From: an uncultured Bacteriovoracaceae bacterium
GTDB lineage: Bacteria; Bdellovibrionota; Bacteriovoracia; Bacteriovoracales; Bacteriovoracaceae
Reading direction: 5' to 3'
NCBI GenBank assembly: GCA_950054155.1
Contig: CATLOT010000018.1
Span: 1 to 64,000, forward strand
DNA: 64,000 bases
Below the pieces are notes generated by a model. That model searched no databases. It was not told the DNA's origin and saw nothing but the letters and a program-made list of their open reading frames with translations. Below are positions 48,927 to 60,507 of this stretch, one piece after another (the first letter of the stretch is position 1; each line of letters starts with the position of its first letter). Position numbers and translations under genes: made by a program.

Positions 48927-49646
48927 ATGAAAAAGAACTGGTCTACCTTCTTTTTATCCCTCTTAATAACGATGATCTCACTCTCGAATACGGACGCGGC
49001 AGAGGGGGATACTTATAGTTTTACTTGGCTCGATCAAGATAAAGAAGTCTACGTTCTCCAAAATAGAAAATTTCGAAAAGATGGAAAGTTTCATCTCAAT
49101 ATAGGAGCTGGGATTACGACATCAGGTGCCTTCGTTGACGCTACAACCTTCCAAGGTCGCGCAGGTTACTTCTTTAAGGAAGAGTGGGGTGTGGAGCTTG
49201 TCTACGCCATTAATAACGGTGAAGAAAATGCGACTGCTGCGAGTGTAAGGAATCCTGGGGGATCAGGATCAGTGCCTTTTCGAAGAATCGTTGATGGATA
49301 TGTCGGCGGTATGGTTATGTGGTCGCCATTTTACTCTAAGATTAATACCTTCAACACAATTATTTATATGGACTGGATGATCGGTTTAGGGGTGGCCAGT
49401 TTAGAAGAGACAAATAATTTTGTGGAAGTTGATAGTCGGGGAGTAAGAAATACGGAGACGACCCTTTCTCATACCGGTCTTATGTGGGACACAGCTTTAA
49501 AGTTTTACTTAAATGAAAACTTTGAAGTTAGGGCTGACCTTACCGTTATCCATTACAAGGCTGATAAGCCTGTGGCCACAAGTACAGCAGAGTCTGATTA
49601 CTATTCAAATTGGGACTTCGCTCTTTCTCTTGGTTATTCGTTCTAA
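48927..49646 (+). CDS. Outer-membrane beta-barrel protein of the Glt (gliding) locus
   Basis: 239 residues: a signal peptide (MKKNWSTFFLSLLITMISLSN), then beta-hairpin-rich sequence ending LSLGYSF, with the terminal aromatic residue expected of an outer-membrane barrel. It resembles the myxobacterial-type outer-membrane barrel group that includes GltA, GltB and GltH; which one cannot be told by eye. AGGA lies eight bases before the ATG. It starts the plus-strand Glt operon. Confidence 0.72.
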   Translation: MKKNWSTFFLSLLITMISLSNTDAAEGDTYSFTWLDQDKEVYVLQNRKFRKDGKFHLNIGAGITTSGAFVDATTFQGRAGYFFKEEWGVELVYAINNGEENATAASVRNPGGSGSVPFRRIVDGYVGGMVMWSPFYSKINTFNTIIYMDWMIGLGVASLEETNNFVEVDSRGVRNTETTLSHTGLMWDTALKFYLNENFEVRADLTVIHYKADKPVATSTAESDYYSNWDFALSLGYSF

Positions 49647-49661
49647 TAAAAGGAGCATAAA

Positions 49662-51083
49662 ATGATTAAAAAAATAGCTCCCCTAATATTACTCGCTCTG
49701 CTGACGTTTCAGGCAAAAGCATCTGCAGATGGTGCATGGGAAACGCTAGTGCGCTCAAAGGGAAATTACAAGTATTACCCTAAAGTAGCTGCTGGACTTA
49801 TAAATGAAGGCCTCTATTTCACATCAATACCTTATATAAAAGAATTTCTTTCTCGAGGAGGAGCAAGAAATAATAAAGACGTTGATCTCTTGATCGATCA
49901 GGTTATTACTCAGGTTGGAGTGAGGCAGTTTGAGGTTCTTCCAAATGCTGTCCTTAATAGATCTAACGCTCCCACTATCAAATACATTCTTGCTAAAAAG
50001 AGCTTCAGAAAAGGGGATTATCAAAAGGCATTGAATTACCTCAATGGAACTATCCCAAGAGAGCATCCTTCTAAGCCATTCGCACTTTTGTTAGAGGGAA
50101 CGATTTTCTCAATTCTTAAAAAGCCAAAGTCATCTGTTGCTGCCTTTAAAGACTGTATTAGTGAATCGAAGACCCAGATGAATCGTGCCTCTAGTGACAA
50201 CCGTTTAAGACAACTTGCTATTAACCGCGACTATTGCACTGTCGGCATTGCTCGCGCAGAATTTGCGGGTAAAGATTTTGAAAGTGCCAATTCTTCTTAT
50301 CTCGATCTGCCGAAGGATAGTTATGTTTGGCCTGAGATTCTTTTTGAGGAGGCATGGAATTCATTTTATTTGAGAGATTACAATAGAACGCTAGGCAAAC
50401 TCGTTACCTATAATGCTCCGATTTTAAACTTTATTTTTAATCCCGAAACGGAAGTTCTTAAGTCTTTGACCTATATGGAGCTTTGCCTCTTTGATGATGC
50501 AAAGAAGGTTGTTGATGATTTTTATAACAAGTATCAAGAGGATACTTTATCCGTTAAAAAGTTTCTGGGGAAGTATGGCAAGGACTACAAGTACTATTAT
50601 TTGTTGGCCAAATCGACCTTGAACGGAAAGAGGTCTGGCAATCGTCTCCTTAATACGCTTATGGATAATGTTTTAAGAGATGCTGCTTATCGTGAGTTAG
50701 TAGATAGCTTTAATCTTGGTCGAGATGAAATTCAAAAGGTGAAATCAATGAGATCAGCGAAGATGAGAAAAGTGTTCTCCGCTAATCTTAGAGAATCTCT
50801 TCTTCTACAACGAGATATGATTGGTGCCTACGTCAGAAAGACACTTCATTTAAATATGGATCATCTTGATAAATCGTTTGAAGGAATGACCTATATTAAA
50901 CTCGAAGTTTTAGGGCGACGAAAGAAACAATTGTATTACTCAGAACAACCCTTTAATCGTGCCAGAGGAGATGTGAAATATCTTAAGCGTAGTGACAAGC
51001 AATACTTTTGGACTTTTAACGGTGAGTTTTGGGCTGATGAATTAGGTGATTATGTTTTCTCTTTAAGATCCGAGTGTGAGTAA
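49662..51083 (+). CDS. gltC: GltC-like periplasmic TPR protein
   Basis: 473 residues with a signal peptide (MIKKIAPLILLALLTFQAKAS) and TPR-like helical pairs through about residue 330. The C-terminal YFWTFNGEFWADELGDYVF segment resembles the ending I recall for GltC-family proteins in gliding myxobacteria. In Myxococcus, GltC is a periplasmic part of the Agl-Glt machine that links inner- and outer-membrane components. It follows the barrel gene by 15 bases and precedes the long TPR gene by three. The identity rests partly on context. Confidence 0.62.
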   Translation: MIKKIAPLILLALLTFQAKASADGAWETLVRSKGNYKYYPKVAAGLINEGLYFTSIPYIKEFLSRGGARNNKDVDLLIDQVITQVGVRQFEVLPNAVLNRSNAPTIKYILAKKSFRKGDYQKALNYLNGTIPREHPSKPFALLLEGTIFSILKKPKSSVAAFKDCISESKTQMNRASSDNRLRQLAINRDYCTVGIARAEFAGKDFESANSSYLDLPKDSYVWPEILFEEAWNSFYLRDYNRTLGKLVTYNAPILNFIFNPETEVLKSLTYMELCLFDDAKKVVDDFYNKYQEDTLSVKKFLGKYGKDYKYYYLLAKSTLNGKRSGNRLLNTLMDNVLRDAAYRELVDSFNLGRDEIQKVKSMRSAKMRKVFSANLRESLLLQRDMIGAYVRKTLHLNMDHLDKSFEGMTYIKLEVLGRRKKQLYYSEQPFNRARGDVKYLKRSDKQYFWTFNGEFWADELGDYVFSLRSECE

Positions 51084-51086
51084 AAG

Positions 51087-53969
51087 ATGAAAAAAATGAA
51101 AATATTTTTAACAATTCTGCTCTTATCGTTTTGTGCTAGTGGTGTAAGGGCTGATGTAGAACAAAGGCGAGAGCAACTTATCAGAATTATTGATGAGGAG
51201 TTAAAAGAGGTCGTACGCCTTAATCGACAACTCGGGGCAAAGAACCCTGATCTCTTGTTAAGAATGGCAGAACTTTATTTGGAAAAAGCACGTCTTGTTA
51301 ATGAGAAAGAAAACAAAAAATGGCTGACACTTAGTCCAGAAGAGACTTCACGAATGGATCAGGCAAGATTTTTTTCGGAAAGTCGTAAGTACTTCAAAAT
51401 GGCCCAGAAAACCTGCTTCTTTATCCTCAAAAAGTTTAAGCGATTTAAAGGCCGTGCTGATGTTTACTACATACTTGCTTATAACGCTAAAGAATTTCAA
51501 GACGAGAAAAAGGCGAAGACCTTTTTTCAAAGAGCTGTAAAGTACTCCAAAGCGGGAAGTTATACAGCGATAAAGTCGAAGCTCGCTCTTGGTGAGATGT
51601 ATTACAACGAAAAAAAGTATAGTAAGGCCATACCACTTTACGAAAAAGCCCTGAGAAAGAAGGATCAAAAGTGGTGGACCAAAGATGCTTATAATTTAGC
51701 GTGGTGTTATTTTAGAGTTGGTAGTCAAAATAAGGCCATTAGGTTAATGACGGAAGTCCATAAGCTTAGTGGAAATTCATCCTATGTTGATCTTAGTGAT
51801 CAAGTTGAGAGGGATCTTGCTTATTTCTACTCTGAGTCTGGTCGCACAAGAGAGGCCCATCAATTTTTCAAAAAAATTGGAAAGGATGTTGGTCTTAACT
51901 TTTTTAAAGTTGGTAAATATCTAAAAGGGCAGGGGAAATATGCTGCCGCTGAGAAGTCTTTCAGTGAAGCTCTTAAGAATGCAAATGATGACGAGTTAAA
52001 GAAAGATATTTATGTTGAACTTCTTTCTTTATATGAGCGCTTTGGAAAAACGAAAGAACATCTCGTAGCGACGAAAGCCCTTTATGAAATGCATAAAAGA
52101 GGAGAATTAAATCCTGATCAAGTCGAAAGCCTGAAGTATCATGCGGGCAGAATGTCAGCAATGTTGCAAAAGCAAGTTGTCTCGAAAACGAGTAGGAGAC
52201 GGAAGAATATTAAAAGGATGAGGGCTGCCTATGCAACCCAGTATTTTCAAATCTTGTCAGGGCTGTCTGGAAAAGTTGACCACAAAGCAATTTTCCATGC
52301 AGCTGAAACTCAATATGCTGTAAACGAGTTTGATAAGTCTGCTGGACTGTATGATCAGGCCTATGAGTTAGCTCTCTCATCGGGTGATACGAAAATAGCT
52401 AATTTAGCCTTAGATGGACTAATGGCCAGCTTAAATGGAAAGGGAGTGAGTAAGGCAACAACATCTAAGTTCATGGGAAAAGCTTACTCAATCTTCTTAA
52501 AGAAGAATCCACGCTCAAAGGAAAGCTTTAAAGTTTATCAACGTTTATTCAATGAGAGGTTTAGTAAAGGTGATATTGCGGGAGCAGAAAGAACTCTTCT
52601 TGAATTCAAAAAGTATTTTCCAAAAAGTGAGAAGAAGCAAGAGGTGATGCTTGCAAAGATCATCGACCACTATAGGGAAAAGAATAATAGAGCGGCCATT
52701 GCGAAATGGGTTGAGAAAATCAATCAAGGTGAATTTAAGGTTAGCGCTAAGGTGGCAAAAAGATTACGGCTTATTCTTCTCTCCATTCAATTTGATAAAG
52801 TTGAAAATCTTAACACCAAGGGGCAGAAAGTCGCTGCACTTAAGGGATACTTAGAGATTTATAAAGATGCAGAATCCAGTGCGGAAGCAAGGAAGAATGC
52901 AGCTTATAATATTAGTATTCTCTTTCATGAATTAGGTAATAAGGATAAAACCTATGATTGGGCCATGCGTGCCCTTTCCTTGATGAGTTCTAGTGATGTA
53001 TTGGAATATGAGGATACTTTTCTATTAATAGCCTCAGGACTTTTTAATTTTAGAGAGTTTAGAAAGTCGGCTGAGATTTATGAGATTTCCCTTGAGAAAA
53101 TTTGTAAGAAGAAATCAAAGAATAAGGAAACATTCTATAAGAATGCTAATATAATTTACCTCGCAGAGAAAAACTTACCCAAGGCCGTAGAAGTTCTGGA
53201 GTTAGGAAAGAAGTGTGGAATCAAAAGATCGACTCGCCAAGATGCTAATCTCGATACCTTGAGAGAAATCGGCGAGCAAGAGCGCTGGCAGTCTTTTGAG
53301 AACTTAATTAAAAGGCTTGATAACGACAGAAATTATATTCCAGATCTCATTTATCCGCTTGCGCAGTTAAGGGACACATATCTATCACGTGGGCGAACGG
53401 ATGAAGCCAATCAAGCGAATAGAAAACTGATGAGCTTTTATCGGGCTGCACGGTCACGCAAACAAAAAATTCCACTAGAAGCTCTTGATGTGGTTGCTGA
53501 AAACTACCTTATAGAGCTGAGAAGAGCAGCTGGGAATTTAAGTGACCTTAAACTGAGTTTCCCCGAGGCAGAATACAATAAGAAATTAAAAAGAAAGTTT
53601 TCATTATTAGATGCGGTAACAACTAAATCTCTAGAAGTTTTCAAGGTCGGAAGTGGTCATGGGATCGTTGAAGGCTACAGGATTCTTGTGGAAAGTTATC
53701 GCAAGCTCGCTCAGGAAATTTCAAGTTTTAGACCTGATAAGAAGAGTGAGGAATATGTCACATCCTTTCAAAAAAGTATGAGAGAGATTAGTCGTCCCAT
53801 TGCTTTGAAGGCTGAGGAATTTGAGAATGAAGCAAAGAGGCAAATTCTCTCGTCAAAAATTCTTTCTAAATCAAATTTTTACTTTTTAGGTAACTCTAAA
53901 TTACCTCTAGTTCCAGAGTTTTATCCTGTTAAAGCAGGTATCTTAATGGATAGGGGAGGAAAGCAATGA
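51087..53969 (+). CDS. gltD: Large TPR-rich periplasmic protein, GltD-like
   Basis: 960 residues with a signal peptide (cleavage near GVRAD) and many TPR and TPR-like helix pairs throughout, for example ALGEMYYNEKKYSKAIPLYEKAL. No lipobox is present: the residue before the cysteine in the signal is Phe. Long TPR proteins serve as scaffolds; in the Glt complex of myxobacteria GltD is one. It overlaps the next lipoprotein gene by four bases, matching a GltD-GltE order. Confidence 0.6.
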   Translation: MKKMKIFLTILLLSFCASGVRADVEQRREQLIRIIDEELKEVVRLNRQLGAKNPDLLLRMAELYLEKARLVNEKENKKWLTLSPEETSRMDQARFFSESRKYFKMAQKTCFFILKKFKRFKGRADVYYILAYNAKEFQDEKKAKTFFQRAVKYSKAGSYTAIKSKLALGEMYYNEKKYSKAIPLYEKALRKKDQKWWTKDAYNLAWCYFRVGSQNKAIRLMTEVHKLSGNSSYVDLSDQVERDLAYFYSESGRTREAHQFFKKIGKDVGLNFFKVGKYLKGQGKYAAAEKSFSEALKNANDDELKKDIYVELLSLYERFGKTKEHLVATKALYEMHKRGELNPDQVESLKYHAGRMSAMLQKQVVSKTSRRRKNIKRMRAAYATQYFQILSGLSGKVDHKAIFHAAETQYAVNEFDKSAGLYDQAYELALSSGDTKIANLALDGLMASLNGKGVSKATTSKFMGKAYSIFLKKNPRSKESFKVYQRLFNERFSKGDIAGAERTLLEFKKYFPKSEKKQEVMLAKIIDHYREKNNRAAIAKWVEKINQGEFKVSAKVAKRLRLILLSIQFDKVENLNTKGQKVAALKGYLEIYKDAESSAEARKNAAYNISILFHELGNKDKTYDWAMRALSLMSSSDVLEYEDTFLLIASGLFNFREFRKSAEIYEISLEKICKKKSKNKETFYKNANIIYLAEKNLPKAVEVLELGKKCGIKRSTRQDANLDTLREIGEQERWQSFENLIKRLDNDRNYIPDLIYPLAQLRDTYLSRGRTDEANQANRKLMSFYRAARSRKQKIPLEALDVVAENYLIELRRAAGNLSDLKLSFPEAEYNKKLKRKFSLLDAVTTKSLEVFKVGSGHGIVEGYRILVESYRKLAQEISSFRPDKKSEEYVTSFQKSMREISRPIALKAEEFENEAKRQILSSKILSKSNFYFLGNSKLPLVPEFYPVKAGILMDRGGKQ

Positions 53970-54874
53970 GATTAATAAATGTTCTTCTATTGAGCCTGAT
54001 TCTTACTGCTTGTGGCACTACAAGTAAGAAAAGTACCCCTAAGAGCGATATTGATACTGAGCTTGAAGGGTTAACGAATGAGAGCTTCGAGTGGCCCCAA
54101 GAGAAGGGATATAATACTGTCGATGACTTTTTAGATTCTTCTGTCACGAATGAGCCCAATGTTCTAGTGGGAGAATCCGTGGCCAAGGTTTCTAAAGAGG
54201 AGCTAGAGAGCCCAATGGATGTTCCAAGAGATATCGATAAAGCGATGCTTGCATGTTATCGAGGGAATTTTAATCTAGCGGATCAGATTTTTGACCGCAT
54301 TATGCGCGAATATAGAAAAAATCCTATCTATTGGAATCAGGTCGGAAATTGTTTCATGATGAAGGGAAGCATGAGAAAAGCTCTTTTATATTTCAATAAG
54401 GCGCGAGACCTGAAGTCCTCCTATACTCCTCCTGTTAATAATATTGGTGTTATTTTCGAGAAAAATGGTTTTTATCAAAAAGCCCTCAAAAGTTATGAAG
54501 AAGCAAAAAAACAGTCGTCTTTTAGTCTTACGCCTATTTTTAATCTAGCGCAGGTCTATGCGCGCTTTGGATTTATTAATGAAGGAAAGAAGCTATTTGA
54601 ATCGCTTGTTAGAATCAATGCGAAAGACGATGACGCTCTCTTTGGATTAGCCTTCTTTGAACTTGCTTCTGGGGATAGTGCTCGCTCGTTACAGATTTTT
54701 GAAGCGTTAAGTCGTGATTACAGAGGGTATCCTGAGGTTGCCGTAAATCTCGCCTATGCACTTTATTTGAAGGGTGATGCGTCTCAGGCTAGAGATATTC
54801 TTTCTGATCTCAAGGTCACTCGTAATCCAGAATTAAATGACTATATTGGAAGAATTAAAAGGTTGGTGAACTAA
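53966..54874 (+). CDS. gltE: TPR lipoprotein, GltE-like
   Basis: 302 residues. The lipobox LTAC puts the lipidated cysteine at C16. An acidic linker follows, then about five TPR units from residue 90 (CYRGNFNLADQIFDRIM, ALLYFNKARDLKSSYTPPVNN, and so on). Lipoproteins of this type in the Glt system (GltE, also AglT) sit at the outer membrane and contact periplasmic partners. It overlaps the preceding gene by four bases and the next by one (TAATG). Confidence 0.65.
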   Translation: MRLINVLLLSLILTACGTTSKKSTPKSDIDTELEGLTNESFEWPQEKGYNTVDDFLDSSVTNEPNVLVGESVAKVSKEELESPMDVPRDIDKAMLACYRGNFNLADQIFDRIMREYRKNPIYWNQVGNCFMMKGSMRKALLYFNKARDLKSSYTPPVNNIGVIFEKNGFYQKALKSYEEAKKQSSFSLTPIFNLAQVYARFGFINEGKKLFESLVRINAKDDDALFGLAFFELASGDSARSLQIFEALSRDYRGYPEVAVNLAYALYLKGDASQARDILSDLKVTRNPELNDYIGRIKRLVN

Positions 54875-55137
54875 TGAAAAGCCTAGCATTCATCTTAGTC
54901 CTCATTTTCTGCATAAGTAGCTTTGCTCAAGAGGCGGGTGTTCAAGCCCCAAAGATTATTTATAAATATAAAAAATATCAGAAATTTGATTTTGAAGATC
55001 TTGTTATCGAAGGGGAAACAGGGAGCCCTGGGGACCTTTCGATTATTCCTCGCTATCAAAGGAAGTTTAAAAATGTTCTTCCCTATAGGAAGAACTTCAA
55101 CGCAGAAATGAGAAAAAGTATCGAGCGTATTCGCTAA
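54874..55137 (+). CDS. Small secreted Glt-locus protein (CglF-like)
   Basis: 87 residues with a signal peptide ending SSFAQ. The mature part has a short motif IIYKYKKYQKFDFEDLVIEG and a charged end with YRKNFNAEMRKSIE. It resembles the CglF family of adventurous-gliding proteins as I remember it. It starts on the gltE stop (TAATG). If the match is right it is a small periplasmic or outer-membrane-associated part of the machine. Confidence 0.58.
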   Translation: MKSLAFILVLIFCISSFAQEAGVQAPKIIYKYKKYQKFDFEDLVIEGETGSPGDLSIIPRYQRKFKNVLPYRKNFNAEMRKSIERIR

Positions 55138-55150
55138 ATAGGGATAGATT

Positions 55151-57097
55151 ATGGATACGGAAGTCCAGAGAGAAAAAATTCATTTTGAAGTAAAGGCAGA
55201 GGGCCCTAATGGAAGTAGGGTCGTATTTCCTCTTGTGAAAAGGAGATCGCTGATTGGTCGAGGCCAAGCCTGTGACATTGTTCTTCCTTTTCCTGATATT
55301 AGCTCAATACACGCAGTGATTGAGGTAACCAGTAAGAATGAAATTAAAGTCTACGACCTTAATTCGAAGAATGGGACCAAGGTTTCTGGTGAGCGTGTTG
55401 TCGTTGCTCAGGTCAAATTAGATCAAGAGCTATTTCTTGGGGACAATAGGATCGTCGTCACTAACTTTAAGGTGGCTGATCTTCCGGCTGCTCCCCTTGA
55501 GGCTATTACCCCTAATTTACCACCACGAGCACCAGAAGAAGTTGTAGGAAATGAAGTTGTTATTCCTTTTGTTAAGTATCCCTTAGAAAAAGATAAGAAG
55601 GCTGAATTCAGTAGTTATATTTTTGAGGATTCGGACCATCTCTATCCCATTTTTAAGTATGATGTTAGCCGCTCGGCAGTTGAAATTATCATTGTCTTTA
55701 ATGATCGAATTCAAAGTGTTGATTATATTCCCGATATCGATGGAACTTATTCTCTCGTTGGAAACACACCCAAAAATAACCAGCTAAGTTATCCCTATCT
55801 GGGAAGTGGTGAGGTCGTCCCTTTTATCAATATCAAAAATAAGAGCACTGAAGTTATGCCTATACCAGGCTATGAACTTCAGAGCCTTACAGATAAAAAG
55901 TTGGAGGGAAATTCAAGCTTCTATCTCAACGATGATGAAATTATTCAATTCAGTAAGCAACATATTCAAATTTTTGTCAGAAGGACAGAAGCACCACCGA
56001 AGGTAGCGGCAGCACCTGTCCTGAGAAGAGATCCAGAGCTTAAGAAATATATGTTTCTGATGCTCTTTCTTGTGCTAAGTTTCCTTGTTCCTTTTTCTCT
56101 CTTTGAAGTTAATGAAGAGGTGGAGGAAGAAAAAGCTCCGGAGCGAATTGCGACAATCCTCTATAAAAGAAAGCTTACTCTTTCTAAGAGTAAGGCAATC
56201 GATAAAACTAAGGATGCACCAAAGAAAGTACAAAAGAGTCCAAAGCTAACGAAGTCGAAGCCTAAGGATAAGCCTAAAGAGAAGAAAATAACCAAAAAGG
56301 TCGAAAAGCCTAAAGCGGTTAAAAATAAGGGTGTTAAAACGGCGAAAAAGAGCGGCAAAGTCAGAAAGGCCAGTCCAAATAAGGGACCTAAGAATGTTAA
56401 AGTTGATAAGGTTTCAGCGACAAGACCTAAGACTGCCCGAGCAGCGCGAGGAGCGGGAAGACCGACTCGAGCGGCTAAAGCTTCGGCAAGCTCAAAAGGA
56501 ACCGTTGACACTTATAAAAGTGTGGACTTTAAATCAACAGTATCTAGCCTTCTCACAAAAGGCGGGTCTACTCGTGCTGCCAAGGTTGCAGCAGATAGTT
56601 CAAGTGGAATTCGCGGGTCTTCTGTAAGTCAGGCAACGAATGGTGCAACCATTAAGACTGCCCAAGTGACAAATAATACAGGAAGCCTTTCAGGTGTTAC
56701 CGAGGGGACTCTTGATCAAAGTCGAGGAGTTGAGGGCTTAGTGAATAAGAAGAGCATTTATACTGCTGGTCTTCCTTTTAAAACCGTTATCCTTGGTGGC
56801 CTAGATCCCGATGTTATTAGAAGAATTCTCGTAGAAAATATTCCACTCTTTAGGCACTGTTACCAGCAAGAACTTGATGCTTCTAAAAGAGCCTTCAATG
56901 GAATTGTGAAACTTAATTTTATTATTGGGGCCTCAGGCCATGTGACGAAGGCTGGTGTATCAGGTAATAATAATCTCCCGAGTAAAGTTAAGGGCTGTGT
57001 TGTGAATGTTTTAAGGAGAATTACTTTCCCAGAGCCGATGGGCGGGGGCGTTGTTGAAGTTGGTCAGCCAATGAACTTTTATCCTAAAATGAAATGA
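55151..57097 (+). CDS. gltG: GltG-like FHA and TonB-type C-terminal domain protein
   Basis: 648 residues in three parts. A cytoplasmic FHA domain (G36-R37, S51-S52, H54, N74-G75) reads phospho-threonine signals. One membrane helix lies at about 301-319. A long Lys/Pro/Ala-rich periplasmic spacer (about 330-470) leads to an AgmX/PglI-type C-terminal domain (about 550-648) with two conserved cysteines in FRHCYQQEL and KGCVVNVL. This is the GltG layout: it spans the inner membrane and reaches outer partners. It overlaps the next gene by four bases. Confidence 0.75.
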   Translation: MDTEVQREKIHFEVKAEGPNGSRVVFPLVKRRSLIGRGQACDIVLPFPDISSIHAVIEVTSKNEIKVYDLNSKNGTKVSGERVVVAQVKLDQELFLGDNRIVVTNFKVADLPAAPLEAITPNLPPRAPEEVVGNEVVIPFVKYPLEKDKKAEFSSYIFEDSDHLYPIFKYDVSRSAVEIIIVFNDRIQSVDYIPDIDGTYSLVGNTPKNNQLSYPYLGSGEVVPFINIKNKSTEVMPIPGYELQSLTDKKLEGNSSFYLNDDEIIQFSKQHIQIFVRRTEAPPKVAAAPVLRRDPELKKYMFLMLFLVLSFLVPFSLFEVNEEVEEEKAPERIATILYKRKLTLSKSKAIDKTKDAPKKVQKSPKLTKSKPKDKPKEKKITKKVEKPKAVKNKGVKTAKKSGKVRKASPNKGPKNVKVDKVSATRPKTARAARGAGRPTRAAKASASSKGTVDTYKSVDFKSTVSSLLTKGGSTRAAKVAADSSSGIRGSSVSQATNGATIKTAQVTNNTGSLSGVTEGTLDQSRGVEGLVNKKSIYTAGLPFKTVILGGLDPDVIRRILVENIPLFRHCYQQELDASKRAFNGIVKLNFIIGASGHVTKAGVSGNNNLPSKVKGCVVNVLRRITFPEPMGGGVVEVGQPMNFYPKMK

Positions 57098-57570
57098 TTA
57101 ATTGGTTTAAGAAAGTTACAGACACGCTGGCCTTAGGTTGTGTTCTTGTAACTTTCTATCTTTCTTATAAAGGGTTAAAAGAAGAATTAGTTTTAACAAG
57201 ATCAAGTTTAAGTCGTCTAAAAGAGCTTTCAGTTCAGGACCTACCAAAGATTATTCAGATAGAAGATGCTTTTTTTGATTATAAGCGAGAATACTGCGCA
57301 GAAAGTGAACACCTCTCTTTGAAATTAAACTTCAGTGCAAATGGTAATGTTGCTTTTGAAGTTGATGTTAAAAAAGCCATCGAGAATAGTGCTATTCCAG
57401 TAAAAGGTTATCACTGGACAGAGAATTCCATTTTTATGGAGATTTGGTTTAAGTCCGAATCCTCTGAAGTGATGAAGTTAACTAAGGTACTACTTGATGA
57501 AAATAATCTTATTCTTGAATTTTATTTGGATGATGTTCCATTCAATCTTGTAAACTGTAAAAAGCCTTAG
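57094..57570 (+). CDS. Small membrane-anchored protein at the end of the Glt operon, unknown
   Basis: 158 residues: one N-terminal helix (about 11-28), a short coiled coil (about 30-50) and a periplasmic domain with two cysteines (DYKREYC and the terminal NCKKP). The ATGA overlap with gltG makes it part of the Glt operon. The family is unknown. Its layout matches the convergent 57567 gene's product: anchor, coiled coil and a domain with one Cys near the start and one near the end. Its stop shares TTAG with that gene. Confidence 0.65.
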   Translation: MINWFKKVTDTLALGCVLVTFYLSYKGLKEELVLTRSSLSRLKELSVQDLPKIIQIEDAFFDYKREYCAESEHLSLKLNFSANGNVAFEVDVKKAIENSAIPVKGYHWTENSIFMEIWFKSESSEVMKLTKVLLDENNLILEFYLDDVPFNLVNCKKP

Positions 57571-58142
57571 AAGGAGTCCCTAACTCTTTGCGGACAAAAA
57601 CTATTAGTGAAGGCAGTTTCTCCAAGTGAAAATTGCCTAATATAACCCCTAGAGTCTACGTTAAGTATGGTAAATCTGCGGTTTATAGGAATTCCGTCTT
57701 CGATTAGTGTAAAATAGATATAGGGACTATATAACAGATGAGTACCTGTCACATCAGGCCTATTTCTATTCGTGATATTTGGCTTATCATCTGTACTGAG
57801 CTCGAAGATAAAAAGCCGATTGTCACTTCTGAATTCCAAAGCAGCAAAGTCTGTATTCTCTCGTTCAGTCTTGTTACAATAGAATCCCTCTATAAATTTG
57901 AGCTTTGAATTTTCGCTATTGGACTTAAAGATGTGAGCAGGAAGCTCATTTTTTCCTAAGGTTTGCCCCACCTCATTAACGAGCTTTATTATTTGGGACT
58001 GATTGTGAAGCTTAAGATGAACATCACTCATTTTTTCTTCCAGAGTCTTAACTTGGGTTAAGAGCTGAAAGCCAAAATAGACCGCAGCAGATGATACTAA
58101 GATTAGAAAAGAAACTACTAATAATTGAAAATTCTTACTCAT
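57567..58142 (-). CDS. Small membrane-anchored protein between Glt and Agl genes, unknown
   Basis: 191 residues: an N-terminal helix (about 6-27), a coiled-coil stretch (VKTLEEKMSDVHLKLHNQ) and a soluble domain with two cysteines (GFYCNK, SFCPQ). No family is recognised. The ATG at 58142 has AGAGGA upstream; a longer frame to 58175 exists. It converges on 57094 with a shared TTAG stop and may be a distant relative of it. Confidence 0.6.
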   Translation of the reverse strand: MSKNFQLLVVSFLILVSSAAVYFGFQLLTQVKTLEEKMSDVHLKLHNQSQIIKLVNEVGQTLGKNELPAHIFKSNSENSKLKFIEGFYCNKTERENTDFAALEFRSDNRLFIFELSTDDKPNITNRNRPDVTGTHLLYSPYIYFTLIEDGIPINRRFTILNVDSRGYIRQFSLGETAFTNSFCPQRVRDSF

Positions 58143-58310
58143 AGATCCTCTGATCTCACAATTTAACGTCCACATAATTTTAGCATCTTATAGTTTCATG
58201 GCAAGGAATTGATGCAAAGAGGAGGCGAGGTCTTATTGTTGGGGCTGTCTTAAGTATTTGATTTTTAATGAGAGTGAGAACCATGAGAGTATAACTGTGT
58301 AGACCTCTAT

Positions 58311-58778
58311 ATGAGCGAGATGACCGTGGTTCAAAGAATATCTCTTTTACTTAAATTGATCCTTTCAAGCCTTTTTGGATTACTTTTAATCTTCGAGTAC
58401 TTTGATGGTGTTCATGATCTCTCCGACTGGGCAGTCTTCTTCTTCTTCATCCTTATGGTGAATGATTGTTACATTCACTACAGAGTGGCAAAGGGGAGGT
58501 CTTTTAAAGAATGGGTCCTAAGTCCAAGAGATGACGGGAAAAAGCTCTTAATGAATGGGATCTTCTTTGCTGTTCTACTCATCTCAATTCTGAGTGAATT
58601 TATTTTTGTCATGGATGTCGGGACTCGAGATATCTTTTACAAGAGCCTTTTTATTATTTGGTCTGGTATTTTCTTGGGAGTCAATATCTACAAGCTAAAG
58701 GAAACCTTCAATTTAAAGCGCTTAATGGTAACAAATGTTGCCCTCATGATCTTGATTGGCAGTGTTGTGATGTTCTAA
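58311..58778 (+). CDS. Small polytopic membrane protein, unknown
   Basis: 155 residues with four hydrophobic helices (about 12-30, 38-55, 80-100, 110-125, with a last segment near the end) and a basic cytoplasmic loop. No known family. The start is uncertain: no Shine-Dalgarno precedes 58311; ATG 58320 is an alternative. It converges on the Agl stator operon and shares a CTAA stop tetramer with it. Confidence 0.55.
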   Translation: MSEMTVVQRISLLLKLILSSLFGLLLIFEYFDGVHDLSDWAVFFFFILMVNDCYIHYRVAKGRSFKEWVLSPRDDGKKLLMNGIFFAVLLISILSEFIFVMDVGTRDIFYKSLFIIWSGIFLGVNIYKLKETFNLKRLMVTNVALMILIGSVVMF

Positions 58779-59290
58779 TTTCCTTCGCCTAGAACAACAA
58801 ACTTATAGGATCGATAACCAGCCTCAGCTGCAGTATAAAGAATCTTTTTTACCTCAGAGTATTTGATCGTCTTATCAACGATGAGATTTATAATACCTGA
58901 GAATTTTTGCGCCTCTGGAGAAGACTTCTCGACTTGTTTAATGATTCTCTTCTTTTTCACGAGTTCATTATAAAGCGGGATTATTCTTCTTTTTCCCTGG
59001 TCATAGGGATTCCCTTTAGGATCCTCTTTATCAAGGATAACCTGGTCATCTACCCAAATTGTGCTGGGGGAGACCTGAACCACCACTCCTGATGTATTAA
59101 CGTCGCTTGAATTTGAAGTTGGTAGTGTAATGTCTTTTGGGACGTTGAGGATGACACCTGTTGTATTGTAGCTCTTTAAAAGAAAAACAAGCATGATGAC
59201 CAGAATATCGAGTAGGGATGTGATATCGATATCAACAGGGCCTTTCTTATTTCTTCTTCCTCTATTTCGAATCGAGCGATTAAGTCTCAT
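58775..59290 (-). CDS. TolR/ExbD-type stator protein (AglQ/AglS-like)
   Basis: 171 residues with one membrane helix carrying the proton-binding aspartate D28 (ITSLLDILVIMLV), the hallmark of TolR, ExbD and AglQ/AglS. A periplasmic domain follows. In Myxococcus AglR, AglQ and AglS form the proton channel that drives gliding; this is the third gene of the matching operon here. AAGGA precedes the ATG. Which of the two paralogues it matches cannot be told by eye. Confidence 0.85.
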   Translation of the reverse strand: MRLNRSIRNRGRRNKKGPVDIDITSLLDILVIMLVFLLKSYNTTGVILNVPKDITLPTSNSSDVNTSGVVVQVSPSTIWVDDQVILDKEDPKGNPYDQGKRRIIPLYNELVKKKRIIKQVEKSSPEAQKFSGIINLIVDKTIKYSEVKKILYTAAEAGYRSYKFVVLGEGN

Positions 59291-59299
59291 TTCTAATCC

Positions 59300-59824
59300 T
59301 TAACTTCTTATGTTGCCAAAGACAATCTTATCAAAGAGGTACTTGGCAGGGTTGTCCATGCCATCCTTATCTTTGATGTAGATCGCATCGTCCGTCTTTC
59401 TAAGGAGCCTCACGGCATCCATGATTTTAACGATAATATCGTACTCAATGTCGACGATAGGTTCGAGTACCACAGATCTCTCCGTCTTATAAGTTTTCTT
59501 AAGATCAATCATATAAGTATGAAGGCTTTCAAAGTCGTATTCACCCTCACTATTCTTAGGGATCTTCTTGATGAGACGAGAGGGCACACCTTTATAAACA
59601 TTAAGTCCTGAGTTATAGACCTTAACAGTTAATGCCAATGGCTTCTTATTGGAAGGGGGAGTAGAAGAAACAATTGGCACATCAGACTGAACTTCAAAGA
59701 TTTTAATAAAATTCGCTGACATGAGAAGAAAGAAAATAAAGATAAAAACAGCGTCCAAAATAGGAATAAGATTGAGACGCTGTGCTGGCTCTTTTCTCTT
59801 TCTTCTACTAGGTGTTCTTAACAC
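59300..59824 (-). CDS. TolR/ExbD-type stator protein (AglQ/AglS-like)
   Basis: 174 residues; the single helix carries D24 (LIPILDAVFIFIFFLL). A basic N-terminus and a periplasmic domain complete the usual TolR form. The start is a GTG with GAGG upstream. It is the second gene after aglR, with 14 bases between, giving one TolQ-like plus two TolR-like subunits, the same set as AglRQS. Confidence 0.85.
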   Translation of the reverse strand: MLRTPSRRKRKEPAQRLNLIPILDAVFIFIFFLLMSANFIKIFEVQSDVPIVSSTPPSNKKPLALTVKVYNSGLNVYKGVPSRLIKKIPKNSEGEYDFESLHTYMIDLKKTYKTERSVVLEPIVDIEYDIIVKIMDAVRLLRKTDDAIYIKDKDGMDNPAKYLFDKIVFGNIRS

Positions 59825-59838
59825 AATAACCTCGTCGA

Positions 59839-60507
59839 TTAAGCTTTAGTGTTCTTTGTTCCAAGAAGATCAAGTAACTTTACTGAAAACTCATCAATCT
59901 CATTGATGATCTTTTCAGACTTTGAACTTAAGAAAGTGTGAATCATCATAATGGAAATCGCAGCGAGAAGACCTAAGAAAGTAGTGTTCATGGCTTTAGA
60001 AATACCCGTCGCCAGAAGCTCTGCTTTTTGAGCAGGGTCAGCAGCAGCAACAGCTGCAAATGATTCAATAAGACCAGAGATTGTACCAAGAAGTCCAAAT
60101 AGGGTTGAAACGTTAGCAATCATTTGTAAATAATTAAGTCTTAGCTCAACTTTTGGAATGACTTCTAAGGCAGTGGCATCAATCGCATTTTGAATTTGTT
60201 CTGTGGATTCTGAAGCTCTCTTGAGTCCTGACTTAAGAACGCGAGGAAGAGCAGCAACTGAACCGGAGCAAACGCGAATAGCTCCTTGAATATCATTACT
60301 GAGAACGTAACGTTGAAGCTCGTTCATAAATGATGATCCATCAACGTCGAGCTTAAAGCTTAGTTTCATAAATCTTTCTAAACTAATCCCAATGCCAACG
60401 GCCCAAATGAGAAAAATCACTCCCATAAAGATACCGCCGCTTTGAATGAAATCGGCTAGAGAATTAACACTTGTTAGTACGGCTGAGCCCTCAACTGATC
60501 CTTCCAT
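59839..60507 (-). CDS. aglR: TolQ/MotA-type stator protein AglR
   Basis: 222 residues with three membrane helices (about 18-40, 125-150, 160-185) and the conserved channel segment LGLLGTISGLIESF near the second helix, followed by ATGISKAMNTTFLGLLAAI. It forms the proton channel with the two ExbD-type proteins encoded just downstream. The trio plus the Glt operon nearby points to the AglR rather than the TolQ or ExbB role. AGGAG lies ten bases before the ATG. Confidence 0.82.
   Translation of the reverse strand: MEGSVEGSAVLTSVNSLADFIQSGGIFMGVIFLIWAVGIGISLERFMKLSFKLDVDGSSFMNELQRYVLSNDIQGAIRVCSGSVAALPRVLKSGLKRASESTEQIQNAIDATALEVIPKVELRLNYLQMIANVSTLFGLLGTISGLIESFAAVAAADPAQKAELLATGISKAMNTTFLGLLAAISIMMIHTFLSSKSEKIINEIDEFSVKLLDLLGTKNTKA

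Follow-up and report, generated by a model that had tools for sequence, protein, structure and literature searches.

Genes of the locus and their assignment

The window analysed here is a stretch of 64,000 nucleotides from an uncultured member of the Bacteriovoracaceae (contig C18 of genome G000, which has 3.52 Mb in 61 contigs and is 99.9% complete), and it contains a locus of the Glt/Agl type, known from the gliding machine of Myxococcus. A forward operon of barrel-gltC-gltD-gltE-gltF/cglF-gltG (48927-57097) converges with a reverse operon of aglR-aglQ-aglS (58775-60507). All the named genes are long intact open reading frames, with intergenic gaps of 15, 3, -4, -1, 13 and -4 nucleotides in the first operon and of 14 and 9 nucleotides in the second. 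The motor is composed of one TolQ-type and two TolR-type proteins, the membrane aspartate being kept in both of the latter. The first-pass annotation of this sequence had listed the barrel, GltC, GltD, GltE, a CglF-like protein, GltG and the one TolQ-type and two TolR-type genes, and each was found where it had been placed (Table 1). Its description of opposed operons holds as far as their convergence goes; it did not mention the three small genes between them, and the arrangement is not peculiar to this genome, convergent operons downstream of addAB being the usual layout in the family. A scan for promoters and terminators returned signals at or below chance.

By its profiles, gene order and motor tree the locus is of the Glt/Agl type and not a Tol-Pal or Exb system, and at the level of sequence it is a deep homologue of the Myxococcus Glt machine. 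In the AglR tree the window protein falls within a 100/99 clade together with four Bdellovibrio Agl sets, apart from the TolQ and Exb-type proteins. Comparison with Myxococcus was made through NCBIfam models, the tree containing no Myxococcus sequences, and none of the equivalog cut-offs for GltC, GltG, GltE and CglF was reached (Table 1). The earlier statement that the set matches the Myxococcus gliding machine therefore has to be narrowed to a conserved core, one barrel and GltF, under the equivalog cut-offs.

It is very improbable that these genes are instead a Tol-Pal or Ton/Exb system that maintains the outer membrane or serves uptake and has no relation to Glt/Agl. AglR does match the TolQ/ExbB models (65 and 34 bits) and AglQ and AglS the TolR/ExbD ones, the solved structures closest to the motor protein are TolQ and ExbB, and the GltG tail is TonB-like; however, the TolQ/ExbB and TolR/ExbD scores all lie far under the model cut-offs and the tree places AglR in the Agl clade. 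Tol-Pal systems do not include two TolR paralogues per TolQ, a GltG with an FHA domain, GltC, GltF or a TIGR04565 barrel, Pfam profiles identified neither TolB nor Pal among the locus genes, and the same genome carries a separate TolQ-TolR-TolA-like set on contig C26 as well as other Exb-like pairs. A Tol-Pal or Exb identity, which the first-pass annotation had named as the result that would overturn its reading, was rejected on the AglR tree and the gene set.

GltG has its FHA domain in the cytoplasm, a single membrane helix near residue 301, a basic and proline-rich periplasmic stretch and a C-terminal TonB-C-like tail. For this tail a TonB-C-like fold was predicted (predicted local distance difference test score, pLDDT, of 80), the top PDB matches being TonB C-terminal domains with a best E of 0.012. 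Across 28 aligned tails from Bacteriovoracaceae and Bdellovibrio a pair of cysteines is invariant (window:56765-57094), which suggests a disulphide.

Table 1. Features of the Glt/Agl locus and of the genes between its operons (lengths in amino acids, aa; scores in bits)
Feature	Position	Strand	Evidence
Outer-membrane beta-barrel, GltA/GltB-like, 239 aa	48927..49646	+	TIGR04565 95 bits (cut-off 60 exceeded); OMP_b-brl
GltC, secreted TPR protein, 473 aa	49662..51083	+	NF033756, E 8.7e-36, 124 bits (equivalog cut-off 450 missed)
GltD-like periplasmic TPR protein, 960 aa	51087..53969	+	TPR profiles; position; full-length 25% identity to C27 GltD
GltE-like TPR lipoprotein, 302 aa, lipobox LTAC	53966..54874	+	TPR profiles; NF033758 only 18 bits (cut-off 225 missed); position and paralogue
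GltF/CglF, 87 aa, signal peptide	54874..55137	+	NF033764, E 8e-7, 29 bits (cut-off 90 missed)
GltG, 648 aa	55151..57097	+	FHA, E 9.6e-14; NF033760, E 9e-31, 107 bits (cut-off 650 missed); AgmX/PglI tail NF033768, E 1e-16 (cut-off exceeded)
Small protein, one membrane helix, 158 aa	57094..57570	+	Overlaps the gltG stop; no Pfam or NCBIfam profile match; found at genus level only, poorly conserved even there
Small protein, one membrane helix, 202 aa	57567..58175	-	No meaningful Pfam or NCBIfam profile match
Small multi-pass membrane protein, 155 aa	58311..58778	+	No match in a Pfam search; fairly widely conserved at this site, including in loci that have lost the motor genes
AglS, TolR/ExbD-type, 171 aa	58775..59290	-	ExbD, E 2.3e-12; membrane Asp in SLLD
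AglQ, TolR/ExbD-type, 174 aa	59300..59824	-	ExbD, E 3e-12; membrane Asp in PILD
AglR, predicted proton channel of TolQ/ExbB/MotA type, 222 aa	59839..60507	-	MotA_ExbB, E 9.3e-26; Agl clade 100/99

Glt/Agl sets in this genome and in the family

The genome contains three Glt/Agl sets: the window locus (C18), a close paralogue on contig C27 and a diverged set on contig C25. The C27 set is a single co-directional operon, whose barrel has 40% identity to that of the window. It is headed by a gene for a vWA lipoprotein (L021:4039-5505) with a site resembling the metal-ion-dependent adhesion site (MIDAS) and long TGGS-type repeats; the protein bears a distant resemblance to the MIDAS adhesin family of Bdellovibrio, and this head gene is conserved in C27-type operons of several genera, g4 among them. 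The C25 set (L022, G000:C25:8001-28000) includes a 679-aa Ig-like protein and a GltG without FHA, and its AglR groups with those of Bd0412-0420 and Bd2368-2377.

The Bdellovibrio genome of the collection, G130, which we take to be B. bacteriovorus HD100, contains four Agl sets whose number and rough position fit the published Bd0412-0420, Bd0828-0838, Bd1473-1483 and Bd2368-2377. Within the 100/99 Agl clade C18 and C27 form a family-specific pair, so neither corresponds one-to-one to any particular Bdellovibrio set; such orthology with a single set was considered for the window locus and is not supported by the AglR tree. The comparison with Bdellovibrio proposed in the first-pass annotation joined the window AglR to the clade of the four sets but matched it to none of them individually. 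The same annotation had pointed to a predatory relative, which is right at the level of the family (the relatives that bear names in the collection belong to the Bacteriovoracaceae, Halobacteriovorax marinus and Bacteriovorax sp. BSW11_IV among them), and it had correctly left GltJ, GltI and MglA outside the locus.

MglA was identified elsewhere, on contig C7, as a protein of 196 aa with G21 and an E of 1e-85 to solved MglA chains, at its usual site, arranged ybaB-recR-(mglB-like)-mglA. The 165-aa protein between recR and mglA (L213:2514-3011, G000:C7) has a weak Roadblock match and is tentatively MglB; the same recR-(MglB-like)-mglA arrangement has been reported for B. marinus (PMC3983030). 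A search of G000 for GltJ (NF033761) gave partial matches and no full-length one, the tail matches belonging to GltGs. GltI, GltH and GltK were absent from the window locus, to which the search for these three was confined.

The distribution was examined in 129 genomes of 48 genera, a sample in which one family makes up the entire order. GltC was identified in 72 of the 73 good genomes and in 122 of all 129. The good genome without a match, G064, has 1.6 Mb, also lacks AglR at E<=1e-25 and is possibly of reduced lifestyle. Loci of relatives were annotated by best BLAST hit against the proteins of this genome, later supplemented with seven g4 proteins, a procedure that strongly diverged genes may escape. 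Across the family the genes recur in the order barrel-C-D-E-F-G with AglS-Q-R convergent to them, which argues that the cluster is not due to chance. Among 80 named loci, 40 have GltG and convergent Agl genes, 6 have GltG with Agl not adjacent, 10 have neither and 24 are too short for a decision.

In relatives the space between the operons is taken up by other, unrelated genes: FeoB in G042, presumably H. marinus SJ (L073:11220-13187), a LolA-like protein and a 418-aa protein in G050 (L102:10841-12861), and a subtilase in G073 (L072:3802-5957). At L172 and G023:C91 GltC runs on into an open frame of 1443 aa that replaces separate gltC, gltD and gltE, a possible gene fusion. Extra small proteins, some 117-139 aa long and bearing a GltG-like tail, were identified near Glt loci or motor modules at L106:5954-6349, L173, L196 and L205.

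Motor genes and GltG in genus g4

Genus g4 comprises 14 genomes (G004-G017), several of which, like those of other relatives, are metagenome assemblies; the pattern described here draws on many of them, G004 (6 contigs, 99% completeness) being one. At E<=1e-25 AglR is absent from eight of the nine g4 genomes of at least 90% completeness, and the ninth has one match at 40% identity. A C25 query identified AglR in two further genomes (G009 and G016), both of C25 type. The C18-type locus of g4 keeps the barrel, GltC, GltD, GltE and GltF together with the 155-aa gene, and tblastn found no remnants of GltG or AglRQS in seven such loci nor in G060, under settings where intact loci give E<1e-47. Absences in g4 were also rechecked in five genomes by searching each entire genome for MotA_ExbB and the tail domain. 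Loss of GltG and AglRQS defines one clade of 13 rows (100/100), including L161, to which G060 adds a case of unsure placement. The barrel to GltF genes of g4 are intact, and their ratios of non-synonymous to synonymous substitution (dN/dS) place them under strong purifying selection despite the lack of a linked motor: the closest pair gives 0.03-0.07, and three pairs together span 0.00-0.09, with many dS values saturated.

At the C27-type locus of g4, AglRQS is replaced by three genes, encoding a 203-aa protein of TolQ/ExbB type (Q), a single ExbD of 141 aa and a short GltG (about 360 aa). The module recurs as a second, unlinked copy, and the tail of its GltG is of C18 type. The Q protein has one or two copies in all 14 genomes; the second copy is present in 11, the other three being incomplete or fragmented. 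The g4 Q proteins group (100/99) with an Exb-type Q of which the window genome (contig C41) and H. marinus have one copy each; its site is conserved, the entire neighbourhood being common to both, and does not contain GltG. A location of the g4 motor at the old C41 site was considered and rejected, as only Q and R match well and no clear common neighbours were identified.

The g4 GltGs differ from that of the window in the FHA domain and the membrane helix. FHA is absent from the two tested by profile, and the others begin just before the helix (11 examined). All 11 carry an S-x3-H motif in the membrane helix, and none was found among the checked Bacteriovoracaceae GltGs adjoining AglRQS; this motif is known from TonB and TolA. 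The tails kept their type: those of the cis GltGs at the C27-type locus reach 206-208 bits under the C27 model and 130-137 under the C18 one and are nested in the C27 clade of the tail tree (100/99), and those of the unlinked, trans GltGs reach 130-152 bits under the C18 model and 88-99 under the C27 one.

Since the g4 GltGs lost FHA, gained a TonB-like helix and kept their tail types, the simplest account of these sequences is that GltG works as an adaptor of two parts, the helix region fitting the motor and the tail the machine, and that evolution re-cut it between them. Data from Myxococcus agree with this: AglR interacts in two-hybrid tests both with GltG and with NfsG, so that a single motor serves two machines (PMC3169522, PMC3858216), and GltG has been called TolA/TonB-like (PMC5349195). 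It is likely that both g4 machines had AglRQS exchanged for an ExbB/ExbD-type motor by way of a GltG chimera, in which the machine-specific tail was kept and the FHA and helix were swapped for an S-x3-H helix; the machine would then be motor-agnostic and GltG would set the pairing. No published account of such an exchange was found in a literature search that left out most subscription papers.

G060, of genus g22 (L103, L117, L118 and L122), has a C18-type locus without GltG and AglRQS, an unlinked Exb-type module whose tail is C18-like, and a C27-type set that keeps AglRQS. This combination looks like an intermediate stage of the exchange.

The C18-type machine of g4 might instead be a passive, static envelope scaffold, the unlinked ExbB/D-short GltG module serving some other purpose. 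Its locus holds neither motor nor GltG and the module is indeed unlinked; nevertheless, the tail of the unlinked GltG favours the C18 type by a margin of 42-58 bits, the only genomes without the second Q copy are incomplete or fragmented ones, and the C27-type locus shows a parallel exchange in cis. The scaffold is for these reasons considered unlikely. For the window locus, the best explanation, held with good confidence on the sequences compared, is a trans-envelope Glt/Agl machine driven by proton motive force, with GltG as its two-part adaptor. AglR, AglQ and AglS would form an inner-membrane motor, probably coupled to protons, that acts on GltG through its membrane helix, and the TonB-like tail would pass the force to GltC, GltD, GltE, GltF and the outer-membrane barrel. 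In g4 the unlinked Q-ExbD-short GltG module would power the C18-type machine.

The gene set, its conservation and order, the tree positions, the chimeric GltGs and the purifying selection are established at the sequence level. The mechanism has several points against it. No experiment on any Bacteriovoracaceae member was found, and the NCBI equivalog cut-offs were missed. The names GltD and GltE derive mainly from position and the C27 paralogues, with weak similarity, and Foldseek support for the tail fold is modest (best E 0.012). In the tail tree the g4 trans tails stand outside the C27 clade, among C18 rows and without firm resolution, and tail similarity alone joins the trans motor to the C18-type machine.

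Role of the machine and comparison with known systems

That the window locus drives surface gliding is a tentative proposal. Its gene content (GltE, GltF and a GltG with FHA) is that of Bd0828-0838, favoured for gliding by Luciano et al. It has close to an even chance of being a true Glt/Agl machine with another job, either moving or anchoring a polymer in the manner of Nfs or Bd0412-0420, or a step of prey attachment or entry. One genome carries three sets, and Myxococcus employs the same motor with Nfs for the spore coat (PMC3858216). The HD100 sets also differ in expression: 30 min into predation Bd0412-0420 has risen 4-7 fold, and the three others rise in host-independent growth (PMC2797640). 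No vWA (CglB-like) adhesin gene is linked to the window locus, whereas the C27 set has one; this proves little, because in Myxococcus the adhesin CglB also lies outside the genes of clusters G1, G2 and M1 (PMC3169522).

Relatives with an exchanged motor are a natural experiment on force transfer across the cell envelope, with a built-in test of which portion of GltG recognises the motor and which the machine. They also make it possible to address the need for two TolR-type proteins and FHA and the running of one envelope machine on different motors. If the exchange is true, the Glt envelope machine is motor-agnostic and GltG decides which motor drives which machine.

The window locus shares with the AglRQS-Glt system of M. 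xanthus (G1, G2 and M1) the AglR/AglQ/AglS motor composition, GltC and an outer-membrane barrel, and with G1 the order GltD-GltE-GltF-GltG, the last with an FHA domain (PMC3169522). It differs in having one barrel in place of GltA/B/H and one locus in place of three, in that no GltJ was found and GltI and GltK were not found near it, and in scoring under the NCBI equivalog cut-offs. Bd0828-Bd0838 of Bdellovibrio likewise has GltE, GltF (CglF 46 bits there), a GltG with FHA and AglRQS; unlike the window locus it is one co-directional cluster, and in the AglR and GltG-tail trees the two do not group together. The Nfs sporulation machine of M. xanthus, a Glt-like machine borrowing a motor encoded elsewhere, parallels g4, although Nfs shares AglRQS whereas in g4 the motor itself would have been exchanged. 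TonB-ExbB-ExbD and Tol-Pal resemble these systems in the motor families, in the TonB-like GltG tail and, for g4, in the S-x3-H helix and single ExbD; the output machine here is Glt, and the window has a motor with two TolR-type proteins and a GltG helix without histidine.

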